NCBI RefSeq assembly: GCF_900215505.1
Contig: NZ_LT907844.1
Span: 4,170,001 to 4,234,000 of the forward strand
Length of the DNA stretch: 64,000 nt
Reading direction: 5' to 3'
From: Cohaesibacter sp. ES.047
GTDB lineage: Bacteria; Pseudomonadota; Alphaproteobacteria; Rhizobiales; Cohaesibacteraceae
The translations under genes were made by a program, and so were the position numbers. The number at the start of each line of letters is the position of its first letter. Within the stretch, counting starts at the first letter, position 1. This document shows, in pieces, positions 9,096-53,203 of this stretch. The notes under the pieces are model-generated. The model searched no databases, had not been told where the DNA came from, and saw only the letters and a program-made list of their open reading frames with translations.

Positions 9096-9109
9096 GCGGG
9101 TTTCACGTC

Positions 9110-36012: not shown

Positions 36013-36024
36013 GATTTTCCTCCC

Positions 36025-36975
36025 TCAATGTTGTCCCGAGCGCCCCGAAAGGAGCCTCTCGGCAAGAACTGCGGCAATGATGATCGTGCCGATGGCCGTG
36101 CCCTGCCAGAATGGCGAAACGCCGAGCAGGTTCATGCCGTTGCGGATCATCACCATGATCAGAACCCCGAACAGAGTTCCCACAATGGATCCGCGACCAC
36201 CAAACAGGCTGGCTCCCCCAATGACGACTGCGGCAATCGCATCGAGTTCCATGGCATTGCCAGCAAGGGGGTCGATAGAGCCGATCTGCGCGGCAATCAG
36301 TGTGACCGCCACGGCGCAAAGAGCGCCCGAAACAACGTATGGCAGGATGCTGTAGAACCGAACATTCAAGCCCGAGATGCGCGCGGCCTCCTTGTTGGAG
36401 CCGACGGCATAAATCGTTCTGCCACCTTTCGAATGGGTGAGATAAATCCAGGCGACAATATAAAGAACAATCAGGATCAGGACATTCATCTGCAACCCGA
36501 ACAAGCTGTCATAAACCAGCCCCGACAGCGCATCAGGCACATCTGAAATGGTTCTCTGGTTCGAGAACACATAGGCAAGGCTCCGGCATATCGCCATCGA
36601 GCCCAGAGTCACCACAAAAGGCGCGAGGCCGAAGACAGCGACCAATATGCCTGAGATCGAGCCAATGAATGCACCGGCCATGACTGCGAACGCGATCGCA
36701 ACCGGGATCGGGACTTCCCGCATGGCCAGTCCCAGCAAAATACCCGTAACGCCGATGACAGACCCCACTGACAGATCGATGCCACCGGTCAGGATGACAA
36801 AAGTCATCCCGATGGCAACAATCCCGGTAACCACCGACTGGTCCATCAGATTGAACAGATTGGCAGTCGTCAGAAAATATGGAGACGCCAGAGACAGGGC
36901 GATGCCGATCAACAAGGTCAGGCCCGCCATACGCACTTCCAGAATATTAGAATATTTTGTAAAAACCTGTGTCAT
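36025..36975 (-). CDS. Sugar ABC transporter permease (RbsC/XylH-type)
   Basis: The 316-residue multi-helix permease of the branched-chain amino acid/ribose class has the typical GGIDLSVGSVIGVTGI motif near residues 65-80 and ANPLAGNAMELDAIAAVVIGG-like residues (PLAGNAMELDAIAAVV) near 235. It overlaps the ATPase gene by four bases, so expression is coupled. One permease gene suggests a homodimer. Confidence 0.92.
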   Translation of the reverse strand: MTQVFTKYSNILEVRMAGLTLLIGIALSLASPYFLTTANLFNLMDQSVVTGIVAIGMTFVILTGGIDLSVGSVIGVTGILLGLAMREVPIPVAIAFAVMAGAFIGSISGILVAVFGLAPFVVTLGSMAICRSLAYVFSNQRTISDVPDALSGLVYDSLFGLQMNVLILIVLYIVAWIYLTHSKGGRTIYAVGSNKEAARISGLNVRFYSILPYVVSGALCAVAVTLIAAQIGSIDPLAGNAMELDAIAAVVIGGASLFGGRGSIVGTLFGVLIMVMIRNGMNLLGVSPFWQGTAIGTIIIAAVLAERLLSGRSGQH

Positions 36976-38909
36976 TTCTGGCCTCCAACCGGAATTACAT
37001 TTTGATCGCTTTCGTCCGAGGCCAGCTGAAATTGCCCCTCCTCAAAGGCCGATAGCTCCTTCGTCGTCTGAGCGAAAATGTCATCTCTGCTCAGCTTTTC
37101 CTGCGACCGCGACAGGACGGCGATCGTGCCCATGTTGATGCCGCGCCTGTTGTTGACGGTCATCAGCAAGGACTGCCGGTCGCCGTCTTCATCGCAAAGC
37201 GTGCCAGCCTGGCAACCAAGAGCCTTCCTGATGAACGTGTCGTCTGCCGGAATGACCACGCCGGGTTCAGGCAGGCCCTGCTCGCCAATTTCTCCCTGTC
37301 GCGTCAGGCACAGCACATTGTTGCCAGCGCGCAGCAGCCATCCGGTCTGAACGCCGAATTGCTCTGCTAGACGACCGAGCATTTGCTTCTGGCGATCCAT
37401 CGAACTGCGCGGGGCGCAAACGAGCGTCAACTGTTCCTCATTGATCTCGGCGGCATAAACATTGCCGATGGTCTGCCCATCACTAATCGGTACGATCCGG
37501 TGGGACAGGGCCAACAGTTCCTCGAAATCCGAAGAGATAAGCAACATCGCCACCCCTTCTGCCGCGAGCTGTCGCAGGATCTTGTAGATCGTCGTGCGCG
37601 CCCCGATGTCGACACCCTTGGTCGGCTCATCAAGAATCAGAACCTTCGGATTGAGCAACAGGGCGCGCATGACAAGTGCCTTCTGCTGCATTCCGCCGGA
37701 GAAATTCAGCAAGGAACTGTCATCCAGACGGTCTCGCGCCAGTCCCATCTGCTCGGCAAGCTCATCGATGCGGGCATTCCGGGAACTGTATTTCAAGCGC
37801 GGGCCAGACAGACTACTCAAGTGATTGAGCAAAATGTTTTCCCGCACGGAAAAGTCGGGCACAATGCTTTGGCGGCGGCGATCCTCGGGCAAGAAACCAA
37901 GCCCGGACAACAGTGCCGTTCGGGAATTGGTCGGCGTATAGGGTTTGCCAAGCAGTGTTATGGTTCCCGTGTCCATCGGCCTCAACCCGAGCAGCACCTC
38001 GGCCAGCTCGGAGCGGCCAGAACCAACCAGGCCGCCAAGACCGACGATCTCTCCGGCATGGATTTCCAAACTCGCGGACTGAACCTCAGGTGTCGATCGC
38101 ACATCTTGCAAGCTCAGCAGAACAGGCTCTTTCGACGTGTCCGGAATGGGTTCGGCGGCTAGAGCCTCGAGATTCTGTCCGACCATGAGACTGATCAGTT
38201 CCGACTGTGTGAGATCGGCAGTCGCGAGGTTGCTCTTGACCGAATGGCCATCTCTGAGGATGGTGATCCGGTCGGTCATTGCGAAGATTTCCTCAAGGCG
38301 ATGGGAGACGAAGATGAGGCCCCGTCCTTCAGCGCGCAGCGCATCCATGACCTTGAACAGTCGGGCACTTTCTCCCGGACTGAGGGCAGCGGTTGGTTCA
38401 TCGAGTATGATGATCCGACTTCCAAGTGCAACGATCCGGGCAATTTCGACCAACTGTCGATGGGCTGCAGACAATTCACTACAGTCTCGACGAATGTCGA
38501 TTTCCTCAGCAAATCCAAGACTCTCGAGCGCAGACAAAGCCTTCCGCCGAAGAGTGGCCTGCGACGGCTTCTTCTTGCCACCATAAACCGGCAGGACGAT
38601 ATTCTCCCAGACGGTCAGATCGCCCGCCAAGCTGGTTTCCTGTGTCACCATGCCGATACCGGCATTCATCGCGTCGCGTGGGCGGGCAAATTTGACCGGT
38701 GCGCCGAACGCTTCCAAGGCTCCCTTTGTCGGCACGATATGTCCACAAATTACTTTTGCCAGTGTCGATTTACCGGCTCCATTCGCCCCGAACAGCGCAT
38801 GAATCTCTCCGGCAGCCAGTTCGAAACTGACTCCTTTCAGAGCAGAAAACGACCCGAAAACCTTCGAGATTTCGTCTGCTTTGAAAAGAAGTTCACTATT
38901 GATTGACAC
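36972..38909 (-). CDS. Sugar ABC transporter ATPase (RbsA-type) with extra C-terminal domain
   Basis: The ATPase carries two ABC domains in tandem. The first has GANGAGKST and LSAAHRQLVEIAR. The second has a degenerate P-loop region VGSGRSE with FSGGMQQKALVMRAL and LILDEPTKGVD. The start is taken as GTG 38909, seven bases after a GGAGG; an ATG at 38930 lies upstream of that site. The length of 645 residues is well above the usual 500. Residues from about 495 form an extra domain (APRSSMDRQKQMLGRLAEQFG, RQSLLMTVNNRRGINMG) of GAF-like appearance but uncertain identity. The extension may sense a ligand or regulate transport. Confidence 0.9.
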   Translation of the reverse strand: MSINSELLFKADEISKVFGSFSALKGVSFELAAGEIHALFGANGAGKSTLAKVICGHIVPTKGALEAFGAPVKFARPRDAMNAGIGMVTQETSLAGDLTVWENIVLPVYGGKKKPSQATLRRKALSALESLGFAEEIDIRRDCSELSAAHRQLVEIARIVALGSRIIILDEPTAALSPGESARLFKVMDALRAEGRGLIFVSHRLEEIFAMTDRITILRDGHSVKSNLATADLTQSELISLMVGQNLEALAAEPIPDTSKEPVLLSLQDVRSTPEVQSASLEIHAGEIVGLGGLVGSGRSELAEVLLGLRPMDTGTITLLGKPYTPTNSRTALLSGLGFLPEDRRRQSIVPDFSVRENILLNHLSSLSGPRLKYSSRNARIDELAEQMGLARDRLDDSSLLNFSGGMQQKALVMRALLLNPKVLILDEPTKGVDIGARTTIYKILRQLAAEGVAMLLISSDFEELLALSHRIVPISDGQTIGNVYAAEINEEQLTLVCAPRSSMDRQKQMLGRLAEQFGVQTGWLLRAGNNVLCLTRQGEIGEQGLPEPGVVIPADDTFIRKALGCQAGTLCDEDGDRQSLLMTVNNRRGINMGTIAVLSRSQEKLSRDDIFAQTTKELSAFEEGQFQLASDESDQNVIPVGGQK

Positions 38910-39025
38910 ACATATCCTCCATCCACTCACGCCTCGAAGGCGACAGCTTCATCCAAATCACACTCACTTCATGGGAATGAAGTGGCCGACACCCATGCGG
39001 GCGCCAGCCACCACTGGAGGAGGCA

Positions 39026-40000
39026 CTATTTCAACTCGCCTGCAAACACGTTGAGTTTCATTTCATCGTGCAGCTCGTCGATGTTTGATCCCGTGACAAT
39101 CAGGACCGGCAAGGCGATTTCTTTTTCGACCTTTTCACCAGCAATGTGCTTAATCAGTGCTTCTGCTGCTGAAAAGCCCATCAGATATGGCTGTTGCATG
39201 CCAGATCCGATGATGGAGCCATTTGAGATCTTTTCGACCAATTCGGGCGTTCCATCAAAGGCAGCGATAATCATGTCATCAGTTTTTCTGGCAGCCCGGA
39301 CCGCCTGCTGGGCACCGATCGACTGGACGTCGGATTCAACGAAGATTACACGAAGATCGGAGTTTGCGGTGATCATGTCCTGCGCGAAACGGAAGGATTC
39401 CTCGGCAGTGAAGGTCTGCATCTGCTGCAGTGGCACTTCTTTGGTCATGCCGACTTCTGCCATGGCTTCACGGAAGCCTTTGGAGCGAAGCTGACCGTTG
39501 ATGCGGGCCTGCGGGATGCCGATAATACCAAAGGATCCGTCTGTCCAACCCTTCTCCTTGACGATCTTGGCGGTTTCCTTACCAATGCCGACTGCTCCGC
39601 CGTAGTTATCGGAACCAACAAAGGAAACATATTCACCTTCGTTTGTGCCGATGTCGGCGATCACAACGGGAACGCCGGCATTTTCTGCCAGCTTGAGAAC
39701 GCTTGGCGCGGTCGAGCTGTCGGTCGGAGAAATCACGATACCGGCAACGCCCTGTGCGATGGCGTCCTGGGCATTCTGCAACTGGGTTTTGGCGTCATTC
39801 GCAGAATCGAGCGTTTTGATGGTATATCCACCCTCTTTTGCTGCGGCTTCGGCACCAGTGGCAACATATCTCCAAAATTGCACGTTAACCGAAGGGGTAA
39901 GGTAGGCGATATTTTTGTCTTGCGCGACTGCCGCGTTGCCGCCCAGCAGAAGCGAGCCGACAAGAGCAATGGATGCAGCAAAAGTAATGTGACGTTTCAT
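39026..40000 (-). CDS. Sugar ABC transporter substrate-binding protein (RbsB-type)
   Basis: The 324-residue periplasmic protein starts at ATG 40000 behind GGGAGGATACC. The signal peptide ends NAAVAQ near residue 27. The fold-type features are KNIAYLTPSVNVQFWRYVATGAE-like N-terminal residues (IAYLTPSVNVQFW), GIVISPTDSSTAPSVL, and GSDNYGGAVGIGKETA, as in ribose/xylose binders. It is the first gene of the operon with ATPase, permease and lactonase. The ligand is not deducible from sequence. Confidence 0.9.
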   Translation of the reverse strand: MKRHITFAASIALVGSLLLGGNAAVAQDKNIAYLTPSVNVQFWRYVATGAEAAAKEGGYTIKTLDSANDAKTQLQNAQDAIAQGVAGIVISPTDSSTAPSVLKLAENAGVPVVIADIGTNEGEYVSFVGSDNYGGAVGIGKETAKIVKEKGWTDGSFGIIGIPQARINGQLRSKGFREAMAEVGMTKEVPLQQMQTFTAEESFRFAQDMITANSDLRVIFVESDVQSIGAQQAVRAARKTDDMIIAAFDGTPELVEKISNGSIIGSGMQQPYLMGFSAAEALIKHIAGEKVEKEIALPVLIVTGSNIDELHDEMKLNVFAGELK

Positions 40001-40107
40001 TTGGTATCCTCCCGTTGTGATGACGGATTGGCTCCGACATTTCAAAGCATTTCATTCGCGCCGACTTCGGCCCGAACTCCTCACGAAATGCTCCAAGATG
40101 CAGTATA

Positions 40108-41195: not shown

Positions 41196-42713
41196 TCAGC
41201 CGAAGTCCTCTTGCGCCTCTTCCTGTAGAGTGGCTTTGGCAATTTTGCCCGTCGGGGTCATCGGAAATTCCGCGATCTGTTTGAGCTCAAGTGGAACGAT
41301 GTCGTAGGGCGTCTTGCCGACGATATTCACTTTGGTTTGCTCGAGATCGACCGCCGAAGCACTGGTGACAAAGGCAATTGGCTTGTGCTCTCCCTTGCCA
41401 TCGTCAAGGCCCACCACCGCGGCTTCGCGGATGTCATCAAGGGTCATCAGTGCCTCTTCGATATCACGCGGAAACCAAGTTTTGCCAGCGACTTGCAGCA
41501 ATTCCTTCACCCGGCCACGCATGGTGAGGAAGTCATCAGCAGACATCTGACCAACATCGCCCGAATGGAGCCAGCCACCGCGCAAGGCTTCGTCGGTTTT
41601 CTCGGGCTTGCCCCAATAGCCGGTCATGCAGCCACCGCGCAGACAGACTTCCCCGGCCTGACCAATGGGCAATTCCTCGTCATTTGCGCCGAGAATCCGG
41701 ACTTCCTTGTCTGGCAGGGGGCGACCGACTGCCCCAAGATGCTCATCGGTGGGAAGAACGGGATCCGCAAGGCCGAAGAAGCCTCCGATTTCGCTCTGAC
41801 CGTAGCTTTCAACAAGTGGCAAAGACAGCTCGTCACGCCAACCCTTCTTGAGTGCCTGCGGAACCGGTCCGCCACCGGACATGCTCAGACGCAGGCTCTC
41901 CGGTGCCCCGCCATTGAGGCGGGCTTGCTCCAGTAGATCGGTCAGCACCGGCGGGTTGCCGACCAGAATGGTCGCCCCGGTCTTCTTCAGAGCCGCATAG
42001 CCAGCCTCTGCCGTCCAGTCCTTCATCACGATGGTCGTAGCATGATTGCGCAAGGGCGGCAGAAGGTTGGCAACGAGCTGATAGGACGAGGAGAGCGCGG
42101 AAGGCCCGAAGGAAATGTCATCGCGCGAATAGCGCAGCCGTTCGCCGATCACGGCTGCGGCGGTCTGGGTCGGCTCATGGGCAAGGCAGGCCCCTTTGGG
42201 CTGGCCGGTGGTGCCGGAGGTGTAGGAGAGATGGGCAATCGCACTTTCATCACCCGGATCAGCGGGAGCGGGAAGATTGGCAGCAAGTAGCTGGGGAAAA
42301 CTGGCCGCCCCTTCCTGGTGCCCATCCATGCAGATCAGATGCTTGACGGTTCCCACCTTGTCGGCAGCGGCCTTCACCTCGGCCATTTTGTCATGGGTGT
42401 AGACGACGAGGCTCGGCGTGTGATCTGCAAAATAATAGTCCAGCTCGTCGGCGAATTTTATGTTGACCAGCGACGAGATGGCCCCGATGCGCCAGGCCGC
42501 GAACATCGATAGCAAATAGTCCATGCCGTTGTGGGCAAAGATGGTGATGCGGTCCCCTTTGCGAGCACCCAACTCATGAAAGGCTCCGGCAGCGGCTTCA
42601 ATCTGTGCCACCGCCTCCGAATAGGTCAGGGACTTGTTCCGTTCGACCCAGTGGAAGGCGGTGTGGTCGGGACGATGCATTGCGCCATCTGTTACAAGCT
42701 GGTGAAGCAACAT
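41196..42713 (-). CDS. AMP-dependent acyl-CoA synthetase/ligase
   Basis: The 505-residue ANL-superfamily enzyme activates a carboxylate as an acyl-adenylate and transfers it to CoA. The P-loop-like LSYTSGTTGQPKGACL lies near residues 162-177, the adenine-binding YGQSEIG near 315, GWLHSGDVG near 400, and the C-terminal catalytic lysine in TPTGKIAKATL near 492. It is downstream of the amidohydrolase on the same strand, with a 72-base gap. The acid substrate is unknown; the context suggests a product of the amidohydrolase or the neighbouring catabolic operon. Confidence 0.9.
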   Translation of the reverse strand: MLLHQLVTDGAMHRPDHTAFHWVERNKSLTYSEAVAQIEAAAGAFHELGARKGDRITIFAHNGMDYLLSMFAAWRIGAISSLVNIKFADELDYYFADHTPSLVVYTHDKMAEVKAAADKVGTVKHLICMDGHQEGAASFPQLLAANLPAPADPGDESAIAHLSYTSGTTGQPKGACLAHEPTQTAAAVIGERLRYSRDDISFGPSALSSSYQLVANLLPPLRNHATTIVMKDWTAEAGYAALKKTGATILVGNPPVLTDLLEQARLNGGAPESLRLSMSGGGPVPQALKKGWRDELSLPLVESYGQSEIGGFFGLADPVLPTDEHLGAVGRPLPDKEVRILGANDEELPIGQAGEVCLRGGCMTGYWGKPEKTDEALRGGWLHSGDVGQMSADDFLTMRGRVKELLQVAGKTWFPRDIEEALMTLDDIREAAVVGLDDGKGEHKPIAFVTSASAVDLEQTKVNIVGKTPYDIVPLELKQIAEFPMTPTGKIAKATLQEEAQEDFG

Positions 42714-42785: not shown

Positions 42786-44291
42786 CTAGATTTTGACGCG
42801 GGGGTTGAGGCCCACATCGCAGGCGATTGCCTTTTCATACATCTGATCGAGATAGGGCCGAACCGGGGCGGCGCCCTTGCTCATCTGCGGGCAGGTGTCC
42901 CGCTCAAAGCGGGCGGCGGCCTCTGCGATCTCGCCGCGCAGATCCGCTTCATTGACACGTTCAAGCTTGCGGTCGCGCATCACCATTTTGCCGCCGACAA
43001 TGGAATGAGTCACCACGTCGGAATTGGCCGAGAAGGCGATCTTCTTGATCGGATCATGCAGGGGCATGAAAGCCCAGGCCGTCTTGTCGAGCAGAATGAC
43101 ATCGGCAAGCATGCCTTCTTCAAGGGTGCCAACCTCCTCCTCCATGAGACTGGAGCTAGCCCCGGCGGTGGTCGCCATGTCGTAAACTTCGTGGGCGGAC
43201 ACCCAGTCCTGATAGTCGAAGCTGCCAATCTTGTGCAGACCCGCGGCTGCCTTGAAAGCCACAAAGATGTCCGCCGTGTCAGCCGAGGCAACCCCGTCGC
43301 AGCCGAGGGCGACATTCACCCCGGCGTTCTTGAGCTTGCGGACCGGCGAGACCCCAGAGCCGAGCTTGAGGTTGGCGAGCGGATTGTGTGTCGTCGAGCA
43401 GCCCGCAGCGCCCATGGTAGCGATATCATCGTCGGTGAGCCAGATGGCGTGGTTCATGGTCAGGCGGTGGGTCATCAGGCCCATGTCCTTGAGGAACTGG
43501 ACGAGCGTCCGGCCATATTTTTCCTCGCCGGTCACGGCCTGGGTCTTGGTTTCGAGCACGTGGCAATGAACGGGAAGATCGCGCGCCCCGGACAGGGATG
43601 CCACTTCCTGAAGCAGTTTCTCGGAGCACCGCTGAGGGCCACACGGGCCAAGGATGATGCGCATGTTGTCCGTGCCGTGCCATTTCCCGGACAGCTCTTC
43701 AAACAGGTCAATCTGCGCTTTCCAGTCCGGAGCAGGCTTGGCATCCAATTGTGCCTTCAGGTCTGCTGGCATCAGGTCACCGACAAAAGGCAGGCTGTTG
43801 CAATAGCTCTCGTCCCACATTGAGGCGGTGATCCAGCCGCGCAGTCCGGCATCGCGGAAGGCGGTCGCGGTGGCGTCCACCGCATCCGGAGTGCCCGAAA
43901 TGTTGATAACATCATCCTGCAGGGTCGTGACACCGGACTTGAGGGAGATGATGGCAATCAGCATCGCCCGGAGATAATGGTCGCGCCATGACAAATGGAA
44001 AGCACCGAGCGGCGGGTAAACCTCTGACAGCCAGATCTCGAGCGGCAGGTTGTCGTAGCGCCCCATCTCGAAGCCTTCGTTCGAATGCATGTGCGCATCG
44101 ATGAAGCCGGGCAGGACGATCTTGTCAGTGGCATCGATGATTTCAAGGTCTCTGAATTCGGCGGCCCGTGCTGACAGATCCGTACCTTTGCCTATAATTC
44201 GGTCACCATCAATCAGAATGTCGCCGGTTGCAAAGCTGTGTGCCGAAGGCCTCTGATTGATAGTGAGGCCATTTTTGAGCAGGATTGCCAT
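42786..44291 (-). CDS. Amidohydrolase (TrzA/AtzA/SsnA-like metal-dependent hydrolase)
   Basis: The 501-residue metallohydrolase has the HxH pair in GFIDAHMHSNEGF (His67 and His69), a third His in HCHVLETKTQ, NHAIWLTDDDI, STTHNPLANLKLGSG, and the metal Asp in GCDGVASADTADIF. This pattern matches the COG0402 group, which deaminates or dechlorinates purines, pyrimidines and triazines. It is transcribed divergently from a LysR gene. A role on a nucleobase-like ring released by the operon on the other side of that regulator is attractive but inferred. Confidence 0.88.
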   Translation of the reverse strand: MAILLKNGLTINQRPSAHSFATGDILIDGDRIIGKGTDLSARAAEFRDLEIIDATDKIVLPGFIDAHMHSNEGFEMGRYDNLPLEIWLSEVYPPLGAFHLSWRDHYLRAMLIAIISLKSGVTTLQDDVINISGTPDAVDATATAFRDAGLRGWITASMWDESYCNSLPFVGDLMPADLKAQLDAKPAPDWKAQIDLFEELSGKWHGTDNMRIILGPCGPQRCSEKLLQEVASLSGARDLPVHCHVLETKTQAVTGEEKYGRTLVQFLKDMGLMTHRLTMNHAIWLTDDDIATMGAAGCSTTHNPLANLKLGSGVSPVRKLKNAGVNVALGCDGVASADTADIFVAFKAAAGLHKIGSFDYQDWVSAHEVYDMATTAGASSSLMEEEVGTLEEGMLADVILLDKTAWAFMPLHDPIKKIAFSANSDVVTHSIVGGKMVMRDRKLERVNEADLRGEIAEAAARFERDTCPQMSKGAAPVRPYLDQMYEKAIACDVGLNPRVKI

Positions 44292-44436
44292 TTTTTACTC
44301 CAGTTGATGGAAATTTGAGCGTTGCGGCACGGAATTTGCTTCTCTTCATGCCGTATGGATGGTCTTGCATTCGAACCCCTTTGTGGCGAGGGCGTGCGAA
44401 GCAACGATGTTTTTCGATAGAAAGGACCTGTCTTTC

Positions 44437-45420
44437 ATGGCGAACCTGACTGGCGAGCACGGGCTTGATCTGCGCTTGATGCGCATCCTGAACGTCCTTC
44501 TCGATGAATGCAGCGTTTCGAAAACCGCAACGATTCTCGGACAAAGCCAGCCCTCTGTCTCGCTTGCGCTGAAGCGGCTGCGCGAGATCCTGGGCGATCC
44601 GCTTCTGGTTCGCAGTGGCGTGCGGCTGATCCCCACAGAGAAGAGCCTCAAGATCAAGGAACAGGTTGCCAATATTCTGTGCGAGATTGATGCGCTGGCT
44701 GCACCCGAAGAAGAGTTCGACCCCTCCCGCTTTGATCGCCGGTTCCGGGTCTATGCGGCCAACTGTCTTGGCACCTTTTTCATGCCGCGCATCGGCGAGC
44801 TTGTCAGGCAGGAAGCGCCCAACATGCCGCTTGATTTCTGCACCATTCCGGACGAGACACAGATCTTTTCCGAGCTTGAACAGGGCAAGCTCGATCTGGT
44901 GATCGGCAACTGGCCGATGCCTCGCGAATATCTGCGCTTTGCACCCCTGCTGGAGACCGAGATTGTGCTCGTGATGCGTAACGATCATGCGATGGCGCAT
45001 CGATCCAGCATCGACTTCGACGAATATCTGGCTCTCGAACATCTCTCGCCAACACCGCACACCAGTCCGGCGATCAGCCCGATAGACGGACAGCTGGCGC
45101 AGCTTGATGCCAAACGGCAGATTTTGATGTCCGTCGCCGAGTTTACGCTCGTCCCGCACATGCTCGAACGCACCGATCTGGTTTTCACCAGCAGTTGGCC
45201 CTTTGCCGAGCAGATGGCACAGTCGGGCAACCTGACGATTGTCAAGGCGCCGCCGGAACTTGCTCGAATGCGTTTCTATACGTTGTGGCATGAACGATCA
45301 CATCTCTCACCCGGAAATCAATGGTTTCGAAAGTTGTTGCGCCGGGTCGCGAAAGAAATAAATGAAGACATCCCGATTATATCCAACAAAATAGGAGACA
45401 AGGCTATTCAGAAAACCTAA
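44437..45420 (+). CDS. LysR-family regulator (NodD/nahR-like)
   Basis: The 327-residue regulator starts at ATG 44437 with an AAAGGA site; in-frame ATGs at 44359 and 44407 have weaker sites. DLRLMRILNVLLDECSVSKTA and SQPSVSLALKRLREILGDPL form the HTH. The effector domain includes LDLVIGNWPMP and SPTPHTSPAISPID. The gene lies between the amidohydrolase (divergent) and the ABC/nucleoside operon (same direction) and probably regulates both. Confidence 0.9.
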   Translation: MANLTGEHGLDLRLMRILNVLLDECSVSKTATILGQSQPSVSLALKRLREILGDPLLVRSGVRLIPTEKSLKIKEQVANILCEIDALAAPEEEFDPSRFDRRFRVYAANCLGTFFMPRIGELVRQEAPNMPLDFCTIPDETQIFSELEQGKLDLVIGNWPMPREYLRFAPLLETEIVLVMRNDHAMAHRSSIDFDEYLALEHLSPTPHTSPAISPIDGQLAQLDAKRQILMSVAEFTLVPHMLERTDLVFTSSWPFAEQMAQSGNLTIVKAPPELARMRFYTLWHERSHLSPGNQWFRKLLRRVAKEINEDIPIISNKIGDKAIQKT

Positions 45421-45589
45421 TAGAGTCTATTAGCCTGACCCGACTTCCTTCCACGTACATTCCTGTAGTTTAATTCCCTTGCGAGAAACGATGCAGTTTC
45501 CGCATTGCTTTCTTTCTGCGGCAGGCTTGACGCACGAGTGCGCGCGGCAGTCCAGAGTTATTGTTTTTTACCAAGGGGATAAAACTTTT

Positions 45590-46621
45590 ATGCTTAGAAA
45601 ATTAAAAAAATTTCTCTTGGCCGGTGCAATTGTACTTCCTGCAGCCAGTGCCATTGCTGCGGATGACTATGCCGGCCATACGCTCGTTGTTGGCGTTTGG
45701 GGGGGCGATATTGAGCGTCTTCTTCGCGAAAACGTTGCCGGGCCACTCGAAGAGGAAACCGGCGCGGAGGTCGAGTTTGTTCTTGGCGGCTCCGGCGATC
45801 GCATGGCGCGCATTTATGCAGAAAAAGACAATCCCACCATGGATGTAGCATTTCTCAATATCTATGAAGCCCCGCAGGCCGAACAAGATGGCATCGTAGT
45901 CGCTCCCGATCCTGAAAGCGACGTCTACAAAAGCATCTGGGACGGCATGAACAATGGCTGCTACGCCATGTCTCTTGTTGGTCTCGGCATTGCCTATAAC
46001 AAGTCGATGCTCGACACCCCTCCCGAGTGGGCGGACATGTGGGATCCGAAATTTAGCGGCAAGATCGCCGTCTCGCAATATCCCGGCTCTGAAGGGGATG
46101 GACTGATCGGTGTTGCTGCCCGCCTCGCCGGTGCCGACGAGCATGATGCGGACAAGGCCTTTGCCAAGCTTTCCGAGCTTAAGCCCATCGCCATGACCTA
46201 CACCAATCTGGACGAAGTGTTCGCCCTGATGGAAGCCGGTGAAGTGGCCATGGCTCCGATGATCTCCGGCTATGTTCTGGCTGCGCTGAAACAGCATCCC
46301 GAGATCGGTTTTTCCTTCCCCACCGATCCCGGCTCCGTTCTGGTCCGTGACATGGTATGTGCGGTGAAGGGGTCGCCAGAACAGGAACTGGCACAGATGT
46401 TTATCGAAAAGGCCGTTGGCGTGAAAAACCAGACCGACTATGCCGAGCAGATTTTCTTCGGGCCCACCAACAAGAATGTAAAGCTGTCCGAAGAAGCCTC
46501 TGCCGATGTGATCGATACGCCAGAAGAAGTCGAAAGCCTTGTGCAGCTTGACTGGCCCTATGTCATCAAGCAGCGCAGCGATTGGACCCAACGCTGGAAC
46601 AAGGAGCTTCTTGGCCAGTAA
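45590..46621 (+). CDS. PotD/AfuA-type ABC transporter substrate-binding protein
   Basis: The 343-residue exported binding protein starts at ATG 45590 with AAGGGGATAA upstream. A basic N-terminus (MLRKLKKFLL) leads into a signal peptide ending SAIAA. The mature part resembles spermidine/putrescine- or iron-type extracellular binding proteins: VVGVWGGDIERLL, FLNIYEAPQAEQDG, LGIAYNKSMLDTPPEWADMW, and GPTNKNVKLSEEA. It is the first gene of an eight-gene operon. The ligand is probably a charged organic molecule; from the neighbours, a nucleoside-like compound. Confidence 0.88.
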   Translation: MLRKLKKFLLAGAIVLPAASAIAADDYAGHTLVVGVWGGDIERLLRENVAGPLEEETGAEVEFVLGGSGDRMARIYAEKDNPTMDVAFLNIYEAPQAEQDGIVVAPDPESDVYKSIWDGMNNGCYAMSLVGLGIAYNKSMLDTPPEWADMWDPKFSGKIAVSQYPGSEGDGLIGVAARLAGADEHDADKAFAKLSELKPIAMTYTNLDEVFALMEAGEVAMAPMISGYVLAALKQHPEIGFSFPTDPGSVLVRDMVCAVKGSPEQELAQMFIEKAVGVKNQTDYAEQIFFGPTNKNVKLSEEASADVIDTPEEVESLVQLDWPYVIKQRSDWTQRWNKELLGQ

Positions 46622-46656
46622 CCTCACATAAGGTTTGCTGGTTCGGCTCACCCCCT

Positions 46657-46692
46657 CACCCGCGTCACGCTCCATCTGGTTTGACGCGGGTG
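46657..46692 (+). terminator. Intra-operon hairpin after the binding-protein gene
   Basis: CACCCGCGTCA (46657-46667) and TGACGCGGGTG (46682-46692) form a perfect 11-bp stem with a 14-base loop and no T run. Its position right after the binding-protein gene suggests mRNA stabilisation and partial attenuation before the permease genes. Confidence 0.65.
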
Positions 46693-46788
46693 AAACCAGC
46701 CCCTTGCTCCTCAGCTCAGGCTGACTCCCCCATTTCCGTTTCAAGGCCCCGCAATTCTCAAGGCCCCAACCCAAGCGAAGGCAAAAGA

Positions 46789-47637
46789 ATGCAAAAGCGT
46801 GCATTTATGTTGCTCCTCCCTGCGCTGCTTCTCTCGGGCGTGGTTTTCCTTCTGCCCTTCCTGTGGCTCTTGGTCACGAGCTTCCGGGAACAGGGAGATG
46901 GCTCGCTTCTGATGGCAGCAGGCTTCTCTCTTGCCAATTACGGACGCCTGCTCTCGGACAGCTACTTTGCGGAAATCTTTCTGCGCACGCTTCTGTTGTC
47001 CGCGCTGGCGACCCTTCTGTGTCTTGTCATCGCGCTGCCAGTGGCGCGGCAGATCGCCCTTAGTGCCGGTCGCGCAAAGGGGATCCTTCTCGCAATCATT
47101 CTGGTTCCGCTCGTCTCCGGAGCGCTGCTGCCGACCCTTGGCATGTTGCATCTGCTCGGCCCTCTTGGTGTGGTCAACAGCCTGCTGAAACAGATGGGCC
47201 TTATTTCATCGAGTGTGAAATTCCTTGGCACCACGACCGGTGTCACGATCGGGCTGGTGCAGGCCTTCTTGCCATTGATGCTACTGCCGCTCGTCAATGC
47301 CCTGTCGCACCTGCCCCGCGACGTGGAAGCGTCCGCCAGGACGCTTGGCGCACCAACCCGCACGATCTGGCGCAGGATCATCCTGCCGCTGATCGCGCCG
47401 GGCATCGTAGCCGGGTCGGTTCTGGTCTTTGCCGCGTCTCTGACCTCCTTTGTCACCCCGCAGATCCTCGGTCAGGGCAAGATTGCCACATTCGGCACGA
47501 TGGCCTATCAGCAGGCCTCCCTGGTGCTCGACTGGCCCTTTGCCTCAGCCATCGCGGTGGTGATGCTGCTGATCCTGTCTCTCGGACTTGTCATCAGTTC
47601 CTATCTTACGCGCATCCTGGTCAGGAGGGCTCCATGA
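46789..47637 (+). CDS. ABC transporter permease (PotB-type)
   Basis: The 282-residue inner-membrane permease starts at ATG 46789. Six hydrophobic helices are visible and the EAA loop reads VEASARTLGAPTRTIWRRIILPL near residues 181-203. It shares ATGA with the second permease (47634-47637). Confidence 0.9.
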   Translation: MQKRAFMLLLPALLLSGVVFLLPFLWLLVTSFREQGDGSLLMAAGFSLANYGRLLSDSYFAEIFLRTLLLSALATLLCLVIALPVARQIALSAGRAKGILLAIILVPLVSGALLPTLGMLHLLGPLGVVNSLLKQMGLISSSVKFLGTTTGVTIGLVQAFLPLMLLPLVNALSHLPRDVEASARTLGAPTRTIWRRIILPLIAPGIVAGSVLVFAASLTSFVTPQILGQGKIATFGTMAYQQASLVLDWPFASAIAVVMLLILSLGLVISSYLTRILVRRAP

Positions 47638-48428
47638 AAACCTATGGTGTCGGTGCTTCGGCCCGTTTCGTCTGGACCATTCTAACCTTTGTCTTCCTGC
47701 TAGCCCCGATTGGCGTTCTGGTCTTTGCCTCCTTTGACGATGCGAGCTTCTTTCGCTTTCCGCCGCGGGACTATTCCCTTCGCTGGTATGAGGCGGTGCT
47801 TGAAAGCCGCGAGTACAAGAGTGCGCTTTCGGTCAGCCTCATCGTCGCGGTTCTCTCCGGCTTCCTTTCAGTGGGTCTGGGGGCGCTGGCGGCGTTCTCC
47901 CTTGCCCGTTACAAGCCGAAGGGAGCAAAGGTGATCGAAGCGATGCTGATGGCTCCGTTGGTGCTGCCGCTGATCGTCTGGGCCATTGCTCTGTTGCAGA
48001 TCTACTCGAAACTGGGGATGTCCGGGACGCTGCCCGCTCTGGTGCTGGCCCATGCGGTGATCACGATGCCCTTCACCATCCGCATCATGATCGCAACCTT
48101 TGCCGACCTGGATCCCCTGCTGGAGCAGGCGGCAGCCAGTCTTGGTGCCTCCCCCATCAGAGTGATCCAACGCGTCACACTGCCTCTTGCCATGCCGGGG
48201 CTGATCTCGTCGGCGGCCTTCTCGCTGCTGATCTCCTTCAATGATGTCATTGTTTCGGCGCTGATTGCCGGTGCCCGCTGGATGACCTTTCCGGTGCGCG
48301 TCTATGCGGAATTGCGCGGTCAGGGCATCGATCCCATCACCCTTGCCATAGGGGCAGCCATCATCGCATTCATCCTTATTGCCGCCCTCGTCGGGGAGTT
48401 CCTGTTCAAATGGTCCCGTCGTCTCTGA
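47634..48428 (+). CDS. ABC transporter permease (PotC-type)
   Basis: The 264-residue second permease has six helices and an EAA loop LEQAAASLGASPIRVIQRVTLPL near residues 163-185. SLRWYEAVLESREYKSAL in the first periplasmic region is typical of PotC/PotI proteins. It is coupled to the preceding permease; the nucleoside phosphorylase follows after 37 bases. Confidence 0.9.
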   Translation: MKTYGVGASARFVWTILTFVFLLAPIGVLVFASFDDASFFRFPPRDYSLRWYEAVLESREYKSALSVSLIVAVLSGFLSVGLGALAAFSLARYKPKGAKVIEAMLMAPLVLPLIVWAIALLQIYSKLGMSGTLPALVLAHAVITMPFTIRIMIATFADLDPLLEQAAASLGASPIRVIQRVTLPLAMPGLISSAAFSLLISFNDVIVSALIAGARWMTFPVRVYAELRGQGIDPITLAIGAAIIAFILIAALVGEFLFKWSRRL

Positions 48429-48465
48429 TCCCGTCGCCTCAAGCCAACAAGAAAGCCGTTTACCG

Positions 48466-49293
48466 ATGAGCGAAGATTATCCTTACCTGAAAAGCATGCC
48501 GCATTTCATCCGCGATGGGGTGCCGCTCTTGACCGGCTTCAAGCGCGACCGGATCGCTCCTTATGTGGTGCTGGCGGTGAAAGACCCACTCGTCGTTGGA
48601 GAGGGTGCCGGAGAAGATGCGCTTGCGAGCGCACTTGATGGCGCCGAGATCAGCGCCCAGACCGGCCTCTTCACCACTCTCACCGGTCGCTATCAGGGTG
48701 CACCCATCTCCATTGTTTCGGGTGGCTCTGGCTCGCCCGAGGCAGAACTTGCGCTGATGGATCTGTTCAATCACACCGATTGCACCACCGTTATTCGCAT
48801 TGGCGGCTGCGGTGCATGGAGCGAAAAGGTCGGTGTGGGTGATGTCGTCATCACATCCGGTGCCGTGCGCGATGAAGGCATGACCAAGGCCCATGTGAAG
48901 GCCGAATATCCGGCCGTTGCGGACTGGCAGGTGGTCGCAGCAATGAAGGCCGCCGCGGATGAGGTCGGCCATCCCTATCACATTGGCATCACGCGATCGG
49001 GCGACAGCGAATATTGCGGTTGGGGCAAGCCCGGCCCCGGCGGCTACCTGCAGGAAGAGCACAAGGGCATCATCGACTATTGGCGTCGCGCAGGCATCCT
49101 CAACACCGACCGCGAGAGCGCGGCCATTCTGACCTTGTGCAGCCTTTATGGACGCCGTGGCGGAGCGGTCTGCTCTGTCGGCGACAATGTGGTCACCGGC
49201 GAGGTGCACAAGTCCGGCTCCGGCCAGACTGCGGCCATCAAGGTCGGTCTTGCTGCTCTTGCCCGCCTCTTCAAGGAAGACACCCATGGCTGA
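48466..49293 (+). CDS. Nucleoside phosphorylase (PNP/UDP family)
   Basis: The 275-residue phosphorylase of the uridine/purine nucleoside type splits a nucleoside with phosphate into base and ribose-1-phosphate. Visible features are VSGGSGSPEAELALMDL (phosphate-side loop), VIRIGGCGAWSEKVGVGDVVI, and NTDRESAAILTLCSLYGRR. The last replaces the usual MEMES/MES ribose-binding motif with DRESA, so the nucleoside may be non-standard. It starts at ATG 48466 and overlaps the ATPase gene by eight bases. Placing a phosphorylase between the permeases and the ATPase of the importer ties the two functions. Confidence 0.85.
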   Translation: MSEDYPYLKSMPHFIRDGVPLLTGFKRDRIAPYVVLAVKDPLVVGEGAGEDALASALDGAEISAQTGLFTTLTGRYQGAPISIVSGGSGSPEAELALMDLFNHTDCTTVIRIGGCGAWSEKVGVGDVVITSGAVRDEGMTKAHVKAEYPAVADWQVVAAMKAAADEVGHPYHIGITRSGDSEYCGWGKPGPGGYLQEEHKGIIDYWRRAGILNTDRESAAILTLCSLYGRRGGAVCSVGDNVVTGEVHKSGSGQTAAIKVGLAALARLFKEDTHG

Positions 49294-50389
49294 TCATCCC
49301 ATGCGCCGCAATCATCTGCTGATCGAGAATGTGATGAAGTCTTATGGCGGTCCGGAACCGGCACTCAAGAGCGTGTCGCTTGATGTTTCCGAAGGTGAGT
49401 TCCTTGCCTTGCTCGGGCCATCTGGCTGCGGCAAGACCACCCTATTGAAGATCATCGCCGGACTGGAAGAGCCGACACAAGGCTCGATGGCCCTTGCGGG
49501 CGAAGGTCTCGACACCATTCCGACCTACAAACGCGATATCGGCATCGTGTTCCAGTCCTATGCGCTGTTCCCGCATATGACCGTGGATGCCAACATCCGC
49601 TTCGGCCTCGACATGCGCGGCATGCAGGGCGCGGAAGCCGACGAGCGGGTCGCCGAGGTACTGGACCTGGTCAAACTGGAAGGCCTTGGCAAGCGGATGC
49701 CCAATGAGCTTTCCGGTGGCCAGCAGCAGCGGGTCGCCCTTGCCCGCGCTCTTGCCATCCGTCCCAAGCTGTTGTTGCTTGACGAGCCGCTCTCCAACCT
49801 CGACGCGGTGCTGCGCAAGAATGTCCGTGTTGACATCCGCGAGCTGCATGAGCGGATCGGCCTCACCACCGTGATGGTTACTCATGATCAGGAAGAGGCC
49901 ATGAGCATGGCGGACCGGGTGGCCGTGATGGCCAACGGCTATGTCCTGCAACACGACACGCCGGAAGTCATTTTCGAGCAGCCAGCCTCGGCCTTCATTG
50001 CCAGCTTTGTGGGCAATCCGCCTGCGATCCTGCTGCCGGTAGCGCAGCGAGGGACCGATGGGTATGCCCTCGCAGGCGCGCCCTTCTCGCCCTCCTCCTC
50101 CACAAAGTCGGTTTTCGACCAGCTCGAGGGCAGGACTGCCGAGATGGCCTTGCGGGCGGACCAGCTGTCCTTCGCCGATGCTTCTGAGGGCATGGTCGCA
50201 GGGGAAGTGCATTCGAGCGAATATGTGGGCGGTTCGTGGCTCGCCCATGTGGCAATCGGCGAGCATCGCATCGCGGTTCAATCCCGCGATAAACCATCCC
50301 ATTTCGGCGCTCCGGCACATTTGCGTTTCGAGCCATCTCAGACCCTGTTGTTTGATCCCGATAGCGGTGACAGGATGGATCTGTCATGA
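49286..50389 (+). CDS. ABC transporter ATPase (PotA-type)
   Basis: The 367-residue ATPase has Walker A GPSGCGKTT near residues 45-53, the Q-loop in IVFQSYALFPHMTV, signature LSGGQQQRVALARAL near 148, Walker [13 protein letters not shown], and THDQEEAMSMADRV. A C-terminal TOBE region follows. It powers the binding protein and two permeases upstream. ATG 49286 overlaps the phosphorylase; the stop overlaps the kinase start (ATGA at 50386-50389). Confidence 0.93.
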   Translation: MADHPMRRNHLLIENVMKSYGGPEPALKSVSLDVSEGEFLALLGPSGCGKTTLLKIIAGLEEPTQGSMALAGEGLDTIPTYKRDIGIVFQSYALFPHMTVDANIRFGLDMRGMQGAEADERVAEVLDLVKLEGLGKRMPNELSGGQQQRVALARALAIRPKLLLLDEPLSNLDAVLRKNVRVDIRELHERIGLTTVMVTHDQEEAMSMADRVAVMANGYVLQHDTPEVIFEQPASAFIASFVGNPPAILLPVAQRGTDGYALAGAPFSPSSSTKSVFDQLEGRTAEMALRADQLSFADASEGMVAGEVHSSEYVGGSWLAHVAIGEHRIAVQSRDKPSHFGAPAHLRFEPSQTLLFDPDSGDRMDLS

Positions 50390-51330
50390 GCCGGGGAGCC
50401 ATCTATTGTCTCGGCCCGCTTGTGCTGGACAGGATCCTTCAGGTCGATGATCTGCCCGGCCACGACGAGAAGGCCTTTATCAAGGCCAAGGAAGAAAGAG
50501 CGGGCGGACCGCCGCTCAATTGTGCGCACGCCCTTGCCCAGCTCGGCGAGGATGCACGGCTGGTCTCCATCATCGGCGACGACACCGACGGTAAAACCCT
50601 GCTGCAATGGCTCGCCGACCAGGACATGAGCACAGAAGCCGTCGAGGTGGATATGGAGGCGGGCACGGCGTCTGCGACAATCATCGTCGACCGCACGGGC
50701 GAGAAGGCCATCCTCATTGATCCGATGCCGATGTCCATGCTGAATGCCATCGGAGAGAGCATCGAGTTTCAAGCTGGTGACTGCGTCATTGCCAACTTCT
50801 ACCAGCCCGAAGCCATAGCCCGCACCTTCAGTCGCGCCGGGGCTCTCGGGCTTGACCGGATGATTGATCTGGAACTGCCGGAGATTGAACGCTGGGGCTG
50901 GAAGGCCATGGAAATGGTCCTGCCCTATGCGTCACTTGTGGTCACCAACCGGCAGGTGCTCGAGGCATGGATGACCCATGCCGGAAAAGAAGCCCCTGTC
51001 GAGGACGCAGCGTTGGAATTCGCCCGCTTCCTGTCCGGTTATGGCGAGCGGCGCGTGGTCATCACACTTGGAGCCGATGGTCTTGTGGCGAGCAATGGGG
51101 CGGAAGAAATCCGCCTGTCCGCCCTCAAGGTCACGCCACGCAACACGACCGGGGCTGGCGATGTCTTTCTGGCCGGGCTGACCACGGCCCTGCGACGCGG
51201 ACGGACGTTTGACCGCGCCCTCATCTTTGCAACCACCTGCTCGGGCACTTTCCTTGAAAGCGGTTGCTGCGACTTCAAAATGGCTGAATACCGGATGAAA
51301 GACGTTCATCAGAAAGCTCAAGACTCATGA
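50386..51330 (+). CDS. PfkB-family sugar/nucleoside kinase
   Basis: The 314-residue ribokinase-fold kinase has the N-terminal LVLDRILQVDDLPGHDEKAF region with the GGPPLNCAHALAQLG signature near residues 37-51. The C-terminal NTTGAGDVFLAGL holds the catalytic Asp and anion hole near residue 250. It could phosphorylate a free sugar or an intact nucleoside. It is coupled by ATGA overlaps on both sides, to the ATPase and to the ADP-ribosylglycohydrolase-like gene. A PfkB kinase next to this hydrolase also occurs in E. coli yegV-yegU. Confidence 0.9.
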   Translation: MSRGAIYCLGPLVLDRILQVDDLPGHDEKAFIKAKEERAGGPPLNCAHALAQLGEDARLVSIIGDDTDGKTLLQWLADQDMSTEAVEVDMEAGTASATIIVDRTGEKAILIDPMPMSMLNAIGESIEFQAGDCVIANFYQPEAIARTFSRAGALGLDRMIDLELPEIERWGWKAMEMVLPYASLVVTNRQVLEAWMTHAGKEAPVEDAALEFARFLSGYGERRVVITLGADGLVASNGAEEIRLSALKVTPRNTTGAGDVFLAGLTTALRRGRTFDRALIFATTCSGTFLESGCCDFKMAEYRMKDVHQKAQDS

Positions 51331-52379
51331 CCCTATCCATTGATCCCAAATCCATTGAAGGCGTCCTCGCCGCGGCCTGCGTGGGCGATGCGCTTGGCGC
51401 AGCTACCGAATGCATGCACCCGCAGGATATTCTTGAGGTGTTTGGCGGTCCGGTGACCAGTTTTCAGCATCCGCCGCAAAAATCCCCTTTTGCCAAGGGC
51501 CTTGCACCGGGCAGGCTGACCGACGACGCCACCCAGATGCTGGCCATGGCCAAGCGCCTGATCGGCCTCAGCAAGGCGCCGGCTTCTGCCGATGCGATTG
51601 CCGGCTTCATCGACTGGTCCCACGACGAGGAGATGTTCCAGCGCTTTGCCGGCCCCACAACCCGCATCGCGGTGGAATCCATGCGCGCCGGAGCCGCGGT
51701 TGAGGATGTCGCTACACCCGCGACCTATTCGTGCATGTTCGGTACGTCAAACGGCGGGGCGATGCGTGCGCCGACTGCCGGATGCGCAGCAGCTGGCGAC
51801 ATTGACGAGGCTGTGCGGCTTGCCTGTCTGTTGTCCTCGCCCACCCACAACACCCAGATTGCCTATGCGGGTGCCTCCGCAATCGCCGCCGCCATCGCAG
51901 CGGGCCTTGGCGGCGCTGCGGCCATGAGCCTTGAAGAGGCCGCCCTTCAGGGTGCACGCCTAGGCGAAGAACAGGCAAAGATAAGCGGACGCATTGTCGG
52001 TGGTGCCGGTGTGTTTCGCCGCATCGATCTGGCCTTCGAGATTGGCAACAAGTATCACGGCGATCTCGAAGCGGCGCGAAGCGAACTGACCGAAGTGGTC
52101 GGCAATGGCGTCGCCATGGCCGAAGCGGTCCCTCATGCCTTCGGCCTCGTCAAGGCGGCGGATGGCAATGCCTGGGGCGCCATCACCGCCGCAGTCAACG
52201 GCGGCAATGACAGTGACACGATCGCGATGTTCGCCGGGTCAATTGCAGCCGCCTGGAAAGGAACCGGGAGCATTCCGGGAGCCTTGATCGAGGAAGTCGC
52301 CGCCGTCAACCAGCTTGACCTTGCGGGTGTTGCTGCCGGGCTTGCTGCCTTCAACCAACGCTTCATTCAGGAGGTCTGA
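51327..52379 (+). CDS. ADP-ribosylglycohydrolase-fold (DraG/ARH-like) hydrolase
   Basis: The 350-residue protein has the di-metal motifs of the DraG/ARH family: VGDALGAATE near residues 19-28, TDDATQMLAMA near 65-75, and GGNDSDTIAMFAGSIAAAW near 290-308. The metal-binding TDD and DSDT residues are present. Members cleave N-glycosidic bonds of ADP-ribosyl groups, but small N-ribosides are also plausible. Its place in a catabolic operon beside a nucleoside phosphorylase and a kinase argues for a metabolic glycosidase and not removal of a protein modification. The exact substrate is unknown. Confidence 0.87.
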   Translation: MTLSIDPKSIEGVLAAACVGDALGAATECMHPQDILEVFGGPVTSFQHPPQKSPFAKGLAPGRLTDDATQMLAMAKRLIGLSKAPASADAIAGFIDWSHDEEMFQRFAGPTTRIAVESMRAGAAVEDVATPATYSCMFGTSNGGAMRAPTAGCAAAGDIDEAVRLACLLSSPTHNTQIAYAGASAIAAAIAAGLGGAAAMSLEEAALQGARLGEEQAKISGRIVGGAGVFRRIDLAFEIGNKYHGDLEAARSELTEVVGNGVAMAEAVPHAFGLVKAADGNAWGAITAAVNGGNDSDTIAMFAGSIAAAWKGTGSIPGALIEEVAAVNQLDLAGVAAGLAAFNQRFIQEV

Positions 52380-52381
52380 TC

Positions 52382-53203
52382 ATGAAACGCTACTGGCTTG
52401 AACTCACCTCGCCCGAACATGCGAGCCTTCCGGACAGCACACTCGCCATCCTGCCGGTCGCTGCGGTGGAGCAGCATGGACCGCATCTGCCGGTTGGCAC
52501 AGACTGTCTGATCAACAACGGCATCGTTGCAAGGGCGCTTGCCAAACTGGCCGATGACATTCCCGCTGTCGTTCTGCCTCTGCAACAGGTTGGTGCCTCG
52601 CAGGAACATCTGGACTATGCGGGCTCCCTCGCCCATCCCGCACCCGAGTTGATGCAATCATGGACCCGTGTTCTTGATTGCGCCGTTCAGTCAACCGGGC
52701 TCAAGCGGGTTCTTCTGTTCAACAGCCACGGTGGTCAGTCAGGCCTGCTCGCCGCGGTCGCTCTCGATCAGAGAGTTCGGCACAATAATCTGGGAGCCTA
52801 TGCCACATGGTTTGACGCTGGTTACCCGGAAGGCCTCTTCACCGAGGAGGAAATCCGCACCGGCTTTCACGGCGGAGATATCGAGACCTCGATGATGCTC
52901 GCACTGCATCCCGAACTCGTCAGGATGGACAAGGCTGCCGATTTCCATCCGGCGGTCGGCGAGATCGAAGCAGGAACGAAGCAACTGTCCGCCAATCCAT
53001 CCGCGGGCCGCGTCGGCGGACTTGGCTGGAAGGCACAGGATCTCAATCTGGAAGGCGTGACCGGCAATGCATCCCTCGCCAGTGCCCAGAAAGGCGAGAT
53101 CCTTCTTGATCATGCGGCTACATGCCTTGCCGAGTTGATCGCCGATCTCACCCAGCACCCGATGCCCGACGGCCTCTGGCCACCCGCACGCTATCGGGCG
53201 TAA
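52382..53203 (+). CDS. Creatininase-family amidohydrolase
   Basis: The 273-residue metal hydrolase has VAAVEQHGPHLPVGTD (Glu, His and Asp metal ligands) near residues 28-43, FNSHGGQSG near 119, and the FHGGDIETSMM metal/catalytic segment near 162. The family includes creatininase and formamide hydrolases of pyrimidine nucleotides in F420/flavin synthesis and mycofactocin maturation. As the last gene of the operon, two bases after the hydrolase stop, it likely opens or trims an amide in the released compound. Confidence 0.88.
   Translation: MKRYWLELTSPEHASLPDSTLAILPVAAVEQHGPHLPVGTDCLINNGIVARALAKLADDIPAVVLPLQQVGASQEHLDYAGSLAHPAPELMQSWTRVLDCAVQSTGLKRVLLFNSHGGQSGLLAAVALDQRVRHNNLGAYATWFDAGYPEGLFTEEEIRTGFHGGDIETSMMLALHPELVRMDKAADFHPAVGEIEAGTKQLSANPSAGRVGGLGWKAQDLNLEGVTGNASLASAQKGEILLDHAATCLAELIADLTQHPMPDGLWPPARYRA

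Follow-up and report, generated by a model that had tools for sequence, protein, structure and literature searches.

In the psuK-psuG route for pseudouridine, import is followed by a PfkB-family nucleoside kinase and a glycosidase, which together lead to ribose 5-phosphate; PsuG does not have the DraG fold. Another known combination is the pairing of an amidohydrolase deaminase with a nucleosidase of the PNP fold, as in the methylthioadenosine/S-adenosylhomocysteine (MTA/SAH) nucleosidase and the aminofutalosine deaminase/futalosine hydrolase systems. Creatininase, MftE, and IolN form a family of their own. In Escherichia coli, the yegTUV-yegW (GgaR) set has been tied to ADP-glucose and glycogen, and the functions of its genes are called unclear (PMC10819704). 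Here, we describe a locus of Cohaesibacter sp. ES.047 that shares components with all of these systems. It lies in a stretch of 64,000 nucleotides (contig NZ_LT907844.1, positions 4,170,001 to 4,234,000; hereafter the window) of a 5.11-Mb genome on one contig, and combines an ATP-binding cassette (ABC) importer and its substrate-binding protein (SBP) with a PNP-fold protein, a PfkB kinase, a DraG-fold hydrolase, and a creatininase-family protein.

The locus and yegTUV-yegW have in common a nucleoside-type carrier, a DraG-fold protein, and a PfkB kinase. However, the E. coli set has an MFS carrier and a GntR regulator, whereas the window unit has an ABC importer and a LysR regulator, and no PNP, amidohydrolase, or creatininase gene adjoins the E. 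coli genes. An earlier note on this DNA had compared the kinase and the DraG-fold protein with YegV and YegU; the likeness is strong for YegU (30% identity over 341 columns, E 5e-37), but the match to YegV is poor (28 bits over 80 N-terminal residues). The psuK-psuG route runs as we propose for the unit, but the window kinase scores only 56 bits on the pseudouridine kinase model (cut-off 540). Similarly, the window proteins fall far below the models of the MTA/SAH and futalosine pairs, and the Glu of the nucleoside deaminases is not kept. The creatininase-family protein belongs to the same Pfam family as creatininase, MftE, and IolN and aligns with solved creatininases, but it scores 90 bits as MftE (cut-off 172), 67 bits as creatininase (TIGR04448; cut-off 235), and 53 bits as IolN (cut-off 245). 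Finally, GntR-DraG-PfkB-PotDBCA operons of Rhizobium sp. TH2, Paracoccus albus, and Mesorhizobium sp. B1-1-8 share the DraG-fold protein, the kinase, and the importer class with the window. In these operons, no PNP, creatininase, or amidohydrolase gene is listed in the stretches shown, for which the gene tables are incomplete; their DraG-fold proteins are 29-32% identical to that of the window, and the SBPs 24% in the two compared.

The operon is real, conserved, and built from known families, and it is uncharacterised as far as our searches show: a literature search (titles and abstract starts; few subscription papers covered) found no account of it or of a DraG-PfkB-creatininase set. We lean, with some reserve, towards the view that the unit is a catabolic cassette for an N-riboside used as nitrogen and carbon source, the base being probably purine-like or another imidazole-containing one. 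In the proposed pathway, the importer would bring the N-riboside into the cell, and the PNP-fold protein would hydrolyse, not phosphorolyse, the glycosidic bond. The PfkB and DraG pair would phosphorylate the riboside or its ribose and split the ribosyl bond, yielding ribose 5-phosphate. The amidohydrolase would then deaminate the released base, the creatininase-family enzyme would open the ring amide, and an AMP-forming ligase, where present, would activate the acid so formed; the parts assigned to the last two enzymes are guesses.

Gene order and distribution of the unit

Eight plus-strand genes between positions 45590 and 53203 had been described in the earlier note. All are present, every product exceeds the Pfam gathering score, and three pairs of neighbours overlap by ATGA (permB/permC, ATPase/PfkB, and PfkB/DraG). 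The ATPase gene, moreover, starts within the 3' end of the PNP gene; the starts of permB and the ATPase gene (46789 and 49286) are as counted in the open reading frames. The boundaries were drawn too narrowly, since the LysR gene, a divergent gene for a deaminase-type amidohydrolase and, variably, the ligase gene also belong to the unit, which comprises about eleven genes (Table 1).

Relatives were collected by scanning a DraG alignment against GTDB species genomes, and the best 80 of at least 565 confirmed loci were analysed. The order amidohydrolase (minus strand)/LysR-[ligase]-SBP-permB-permC-PNP-ATPase-PfkB-DraG-creatininase was found in seven of these 80 loci (L012, L013, L014, L016, L017, L019, and L028). 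Their hosts are two Martelella, a soil metagenome-assembled genome (MAG), Prosthecomicrobium pneumaticum, a record titled Marinicella sp. W31, Rhizobium lusitanum, and Pleomorphomonas. A congener (G009) carries the same block at 91-98% identity. Conserved order across genera, proposed as a check in the earlier note, was thus observed, and the arrangement is not due to chance.

The amidohydrolase gene is present in all seven relatives and in the congener, although it is in two frames in L014 and clipped by the stretch edge in L016. The ligase gene is more variable. It adjoins the amidohydrolase gene in the window and in the congener (95%) and lies between the LysR and SBP genes in L016 and L019 (56-58%); it has no match in the stretches of L012, L013, L017, and L028, and the stretch of L014 ends at the amidohydrolase. 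A gene with an NAD-epimerase-like start follows the amidohydrolase in place of the ligase in L012, L013, and L017; that of L012 scores 260 bits as D-erythronate dehydrogenase, below the cut-off of 325. In L017, the PfkB and DraG genes are broken across frames (9074-11034). In the R. lusitanum locus, a 5-formyltetrahydrofolate cyclo-ligase-like gene (L019:11864-12622; PF01812, 60 bits) overlaps the creatininase 3' end and is perhaps one further pathway step. This gene and the thiMD genes beyond yegW/yegX in E. coli hint at a thiamine link, which is a lead from a single locus each.

The unit is probably a cassette that moved horizontally as one piece, as judged from the following comparisons. 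The genes flanking the window unit were unmatched around the copy in the congener, and the window PNP-fold protein is closer to that of Martelella lutilitoris (88%) than RecA is (81%); the amidohydrolase shows 85%. The G+C content is 59-62% over 46-52 kb and mostly 52-56% elsewhere in the window, where, however, a few other stretches reach 59-60%. The pairwise identities of ten families in eight taxa correlate at 0.88-0.98 (L017 excluded, a LysR fragment of L013 dropped, and amidohydrolase fragments from L014 and L016 included). Within the family, 2 of 20 genomes have the DraG gene, and the count for the PNP gene is the same. Class-wide searches of 385 genomes, in which few candidates were scored per genome and coverage was thin, yielded the DraG-fold protein in two (the host itself and one at 29%) and the PNP-fold protein in four (three beyond the host, at 35-36%).

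Table 1 Features of the predicted unit in the window (positions are those of the window).
Feature	Position	Strand	Evidence and remarks
AMP-forming (acyl-CoA-type) ligase, variable member	41196..42713	-	PF00501 6e-66
Amidohydrolase, TRZ/ATZ/8-oxoguanine/SAH-deaminase group, predicted base deaminase	42786..44291	-	PF01979 1e-43
Sigma-54-like -24/-12 element, directed towards LysR	44325..44340	+	11/12 consensus positions
LysR-type regulator	44359..45420	+	PF00126, PF03466; start uncertain, alternative ATG at 44437
Perfect 17-bp palindrome at LysR stop codon, possible LysR operator	45417..45433		
Periplasmic SBP, PotD/PhnS-like class	45590..46621	+	PF13416 7e-24
ABC permease, PotB type (permB)	46789..47637	+	PF00528; PotB model 150 bits, cut-off 348
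ABC permease, PotC type (permC)	47634..48428	+	PF00528; PotC model 145 bits, cut-off 326
PNP/UDP-superfamily protein, predicted purine-type nucleosidase	48466..49293	+	PF01048 4e-29
ABC ATPase with TOBE domain, PotA/MalK type	49286..50389	+	PF00005 4e-39, PF08402
PfkB-family kinase, nearest ribokinases	50386..51330	+	PF00294 1e-37; ribokinase model TIGR02152 105 bits, below cut-off 300
DraG/ADP-ribosylglycohydrolase-fold hydrolase	51327..52379	+	PF03747 4e-42
Creatininase-family metalloamidase	52382..53203	+	PF02633 1e-59; nearest solved sequence 3lub

At 35104-40045, the minus strand carries a ribose-type ABC importer and an SMP-30/gluconolactonase gene. We do not count these ABC genes (35-40 kb) among the members of the unit, because they have no match in the 20 kb surrounding the operon of the congener, where the SBP gene of this set sits on a different contig from the operon. 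That SBP gene occurs in three of the 20 family genomes, host included.

Predicted functions of the proteins

The DraG-fold protein scores 145 bits against a Pfam cut-off of 26, and D21, T65-D66-D67, D295, and D297, which presumably have a metal role, are invariant in five aligned sequences. It is not DraG proper by the dinitrogenase reductase hydrolase model (TIGR02662; 41 bits, cut-off 337). The neighbours of the 73 other DraG loci among the best 80 were classed by their top tblastn hits in a small reference set, which gives rough labels. In 52 of the loci, a PfkB gene lies no more than 2.5 kb from DraG. Within 5.5 kb, the carriers were BMP-type nucleoside ABC importers (13 loci), NHS permeases (11, of which 10 are enterobacterial yegT-like sets), RbsABC (7), NCS1 (6), and PotDBCA (5). 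One of these five kinds is thus present at 42 loci, and at 30 of them it is a nucleoside or nucleobase type. TRZ-type amidohydrolases were near DraG at four of the 73 loci, a PNP gene at one, and a creatininase gene at none. Annotated plasmid records show a nucleoside permease, a cytosine permease, or PotDBCA beside DraG, but one shows DraG with an MFS carrier and a SIS gene. Furthermore, an adenine deaminase over the curated cut-off (591 against 472) lies beside PfkB and DraG in Kaistia (L015).

The PfkB genes and carriers at these loci, with nucleoside or nucleobase types at 30 of the 73, support a role of DraG-PfkB pairs, E. coli yegUV included, in the handling of ribosides. A route dedicated to the catabolism of a nucleoside-like ligand, as the earlier note had suggested, is supported by the conserved order and by the carriers beside many, though not all, DraG-PfkB pairs. 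Three Chloroflexota MAG loci (L053:5368-8645, L089:10001-13851, and L047:5218-8861) have DraG and PfkB genes with a BMP-type ABC importer and a nucleoside-deaminase-like amidohydrolase; the model scan covered the amidohydrolases of L053 and L089. An Erysipelotrichaceae MAG (L037:7945-13108) carries five tandem DraG-fold genes between nucleoside-type ABC genes and PfkB.

The importer allows a different view of the substrate. The SBP scores 91 bits on the PhnS model (cut-off 395), and its structural neighbours include binders of mannopine, agropinic acid, and gamma-aminobutyric acid (GABA). The substrate might accordingly be an opine- or Amadori-like conjugate of an amine and a sugar, with the PotD-class importer, the PfkB kinase, and the amidohydrolases processing a glycosylamine other than a nucleoside. 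This explanation is kept alive by the labelled neighbours of the SBP; SIS-domain genes, moreover, adjoin DraG and PfkB in L008 and L083 and a PNP relative in L004. On the other hand, matches to the PotD class cover a broad superfamily, and the AlphaFold model of the SBP is poor (predicted local distance difference test, pLDDT, 60). Of the enzymes of the unit, the PNP-fold protein, with its purine-type Asp (described below), is the best conserved, and this, like the 30 loci with BMP-type, NHS, or NCS1 carriers, argues against a non-nucleoside substrate. We therefore regard an opine-like compound as unlikely.

The DRES motif, which the earlier note had taken as the ribose motif of the PNP-fold protein, is confirmed. 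It corresponds to EMES in E. coli Udp, and all nine operon proteins as well as a Rhizobium leguminosarum relative have Arg in place of Met197. In Udp, R30, R48, R91, and T94 are phosphate ligands. R91 and E198 are kept, whereas the nine operon proteins have Gly at R48 and T94, Trp at Q166, and Asp at V221 (Udp numbering). With the DP motif aligned, R30 is not conserved, and an alternative gap placement gives Arg in only one of the nine. The Asp at V221 is part of a GDN motif that aligns with SDH in E. coli DeoD and SDV in E. coli Mtn, where the SD-loop Asp is the purine acid. Since most phosphate ligands are lost and an Asp stands at the position of the purine acid, the protein is more likely a purine-type nucleosidase than a phosphorylase, as far as the alignments can indicate. 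The phosphorolysis implied by the name phosphorylase in the earlier note is therefore not borne out, even though R91 remains. The AlphaFold model matches uridine phosphorylases in fold (pLDDT 64); in view of the modest confidence of both models, the fold matches of this protein and of the SBP carry little weight. The nearest plasmid relative (46%; R. leguminosarum, L004:8408-10876), which has the same Met-to-Arg change, sits with SIS-domain and UPF0047 genes, and PfkB and ABC genes lie on the opposite strand.

If the phosphate site had merely been rearranged, the protein could be a true phosphorylase in an ordinary operon for phosphorolysis and salvage of purine nucleosides. The retention of R91 and E198 would fit this, as would the best family score of the protein, which is that for uridine phosphorylase. 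However, the Gly residues at R48 and T94 and the missing R30 point the other way, three further PF01048 proteins are already encoded in the host genome, and ordinary salvage would need neither DraG nor creatininase. Such an operon is quite unlikely.

The amidohydrolase reaches the cut-off of none of the listed NCBIfam models. In SAH/MTA deaminases, the Glu of the P-x-E motif after HxH binds ribose. This residue is Gly, Phe, or Tyr in all seven operon amidohydrolases aligned, and it is kept in two Chloroflexota amidohydrolases beside DraG-PfkB (two of four such loci were aligned). The replacement of the ribose-binding Glu makes the freed base the more likely substrate of the enzyme.

Putative control elements

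The window contains a single site with at most one mismatch to the sigma-54 consensus (GG-N10-GC spacing), the sigma-54-like element, and 0.8 such sites are expected by chance, so that its weight comes from conservation. In seven of nine loci, which represent three groups of close relatives, the element and the start of the amidohydrolase gene are 32-37 nt apart. Among 2000 letter shuffles, 0 to 39 reached the score of the element for the seven loci, 2 for L016, and 1591 for L019. A sigma-54 gene is present in the host genome. The place of the element suggests a later start of the LysR gene, perhaps at 44437. For the palindrome, 0.01 occurrences at three mismatches or fewer are expected in the window; at least seven of its eight pairs are kept in seven of the nine loci, six in L016, and five in L019. 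A comparison of the two intergenic regions found no common words in eight of the nine loci and one weak pair in L016.

The two putative elements flanking the LysR gene suggest a nitrogen control of the unit: nitrogen shortage would raise the LysR protein through a sigma-54-type promoter, and LysR would switch the operon on from the palindrome. The N-riboside reading does not rest on the sigma-54-like element.

Weighing of the substrate and meaning of the unit

Several observations count against the N-riboside reading. The NCBIfam scan covered the ten proteins of the unit other than the ligase, and none reaches the cut-off of any listed model; hence, no activity can be named for them. The family score of the PNP-fold protein is highest for uridine phosphorylase (160 bits, cut-off 280), and R91 is kept. 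The nearest labelled relatives of the SBP bind opines, polyamines, GABA, or aminophosphonate, with no named nucleoside binder among them, and no ligand is named for 4edp, the nearest solved sequence and the closest of all. As for the DraG loci, 21 of the 73 have no PfkB gene within 2.5 kb, 31 have none of the five carrier kinds, and a Klebsiella plasmid locus has DraG with a phosphotransferase system and amidohydrolases, with no kinase listed. The ligase is unseen in five of the seven relatives, counting L014. The correlated identities are equally expected under vertical inheritance, and PNP identity (68-78%) is below that of RecA (81-83%) for Pleomorphomonas, Prosthecomicrobium, and R. lusitanum. 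In addition, the chance expectation for the sigma-54-like element is 0.8 in the window, the element is absent in L019, and L016 has one elsewhere with an equal rival on the minus strand.

DraG/ARH enzymes cut alpha-linked ribosyl bonds. On this basis, one could imagine that DraG-fold proteins and PfkB kinases form a widespread, unrecognised module that splits alpha-linked ribosides, and that the substrate of the cassette is a compound with two bonds, such as ribosyl-adenosine derived from poly(ADP-ribose) or a different ribosylated nucleoside. The DraG-fold enzyme would cut the ribosyl-ribose bond and the PNP-fold nucleosidase the base-ribose bond, PfkB would trap the ribose, and the amidohydrolase and creatininase would dismantle the base. 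We consider this very doubtful; if true, it would explain the presence of two unrelated glycosidic-bond enzymes in one operon. Cytokinin, 7-methylguanosine, B12 alpha-ribazole, and formamidopyrimidine (FAPy) were also considered as substrates, with nothing in their favour. A role in ADP-ribose or protein ADP-ribosylation turnover, in which DraG would act on macromolecules or free ADP-ribose and the importer would be unrelated, is highly improbable: the DraG motifs are kept and there is a distant similarity to ARH3 (E 4e-11), but importer and kinase accompany DraG in all seven relatives, and no ADP-ribosyltransferase or macrodomain protein was found among the 20 window proteins scanned with Pfam.

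The cassette offers five enzymes that are still uncharacterised and probably have one ligand in common, with a binding protein as the starting point for screening. The most useful part of the finding is the hint to the function of DraG-PfkB pairs such as yegUV: the frequent association of DraG-fold proteins with PfkB kinases and nucleoside-type carriers narrows the roles of yegU and yegV to a short list of testable reactions.

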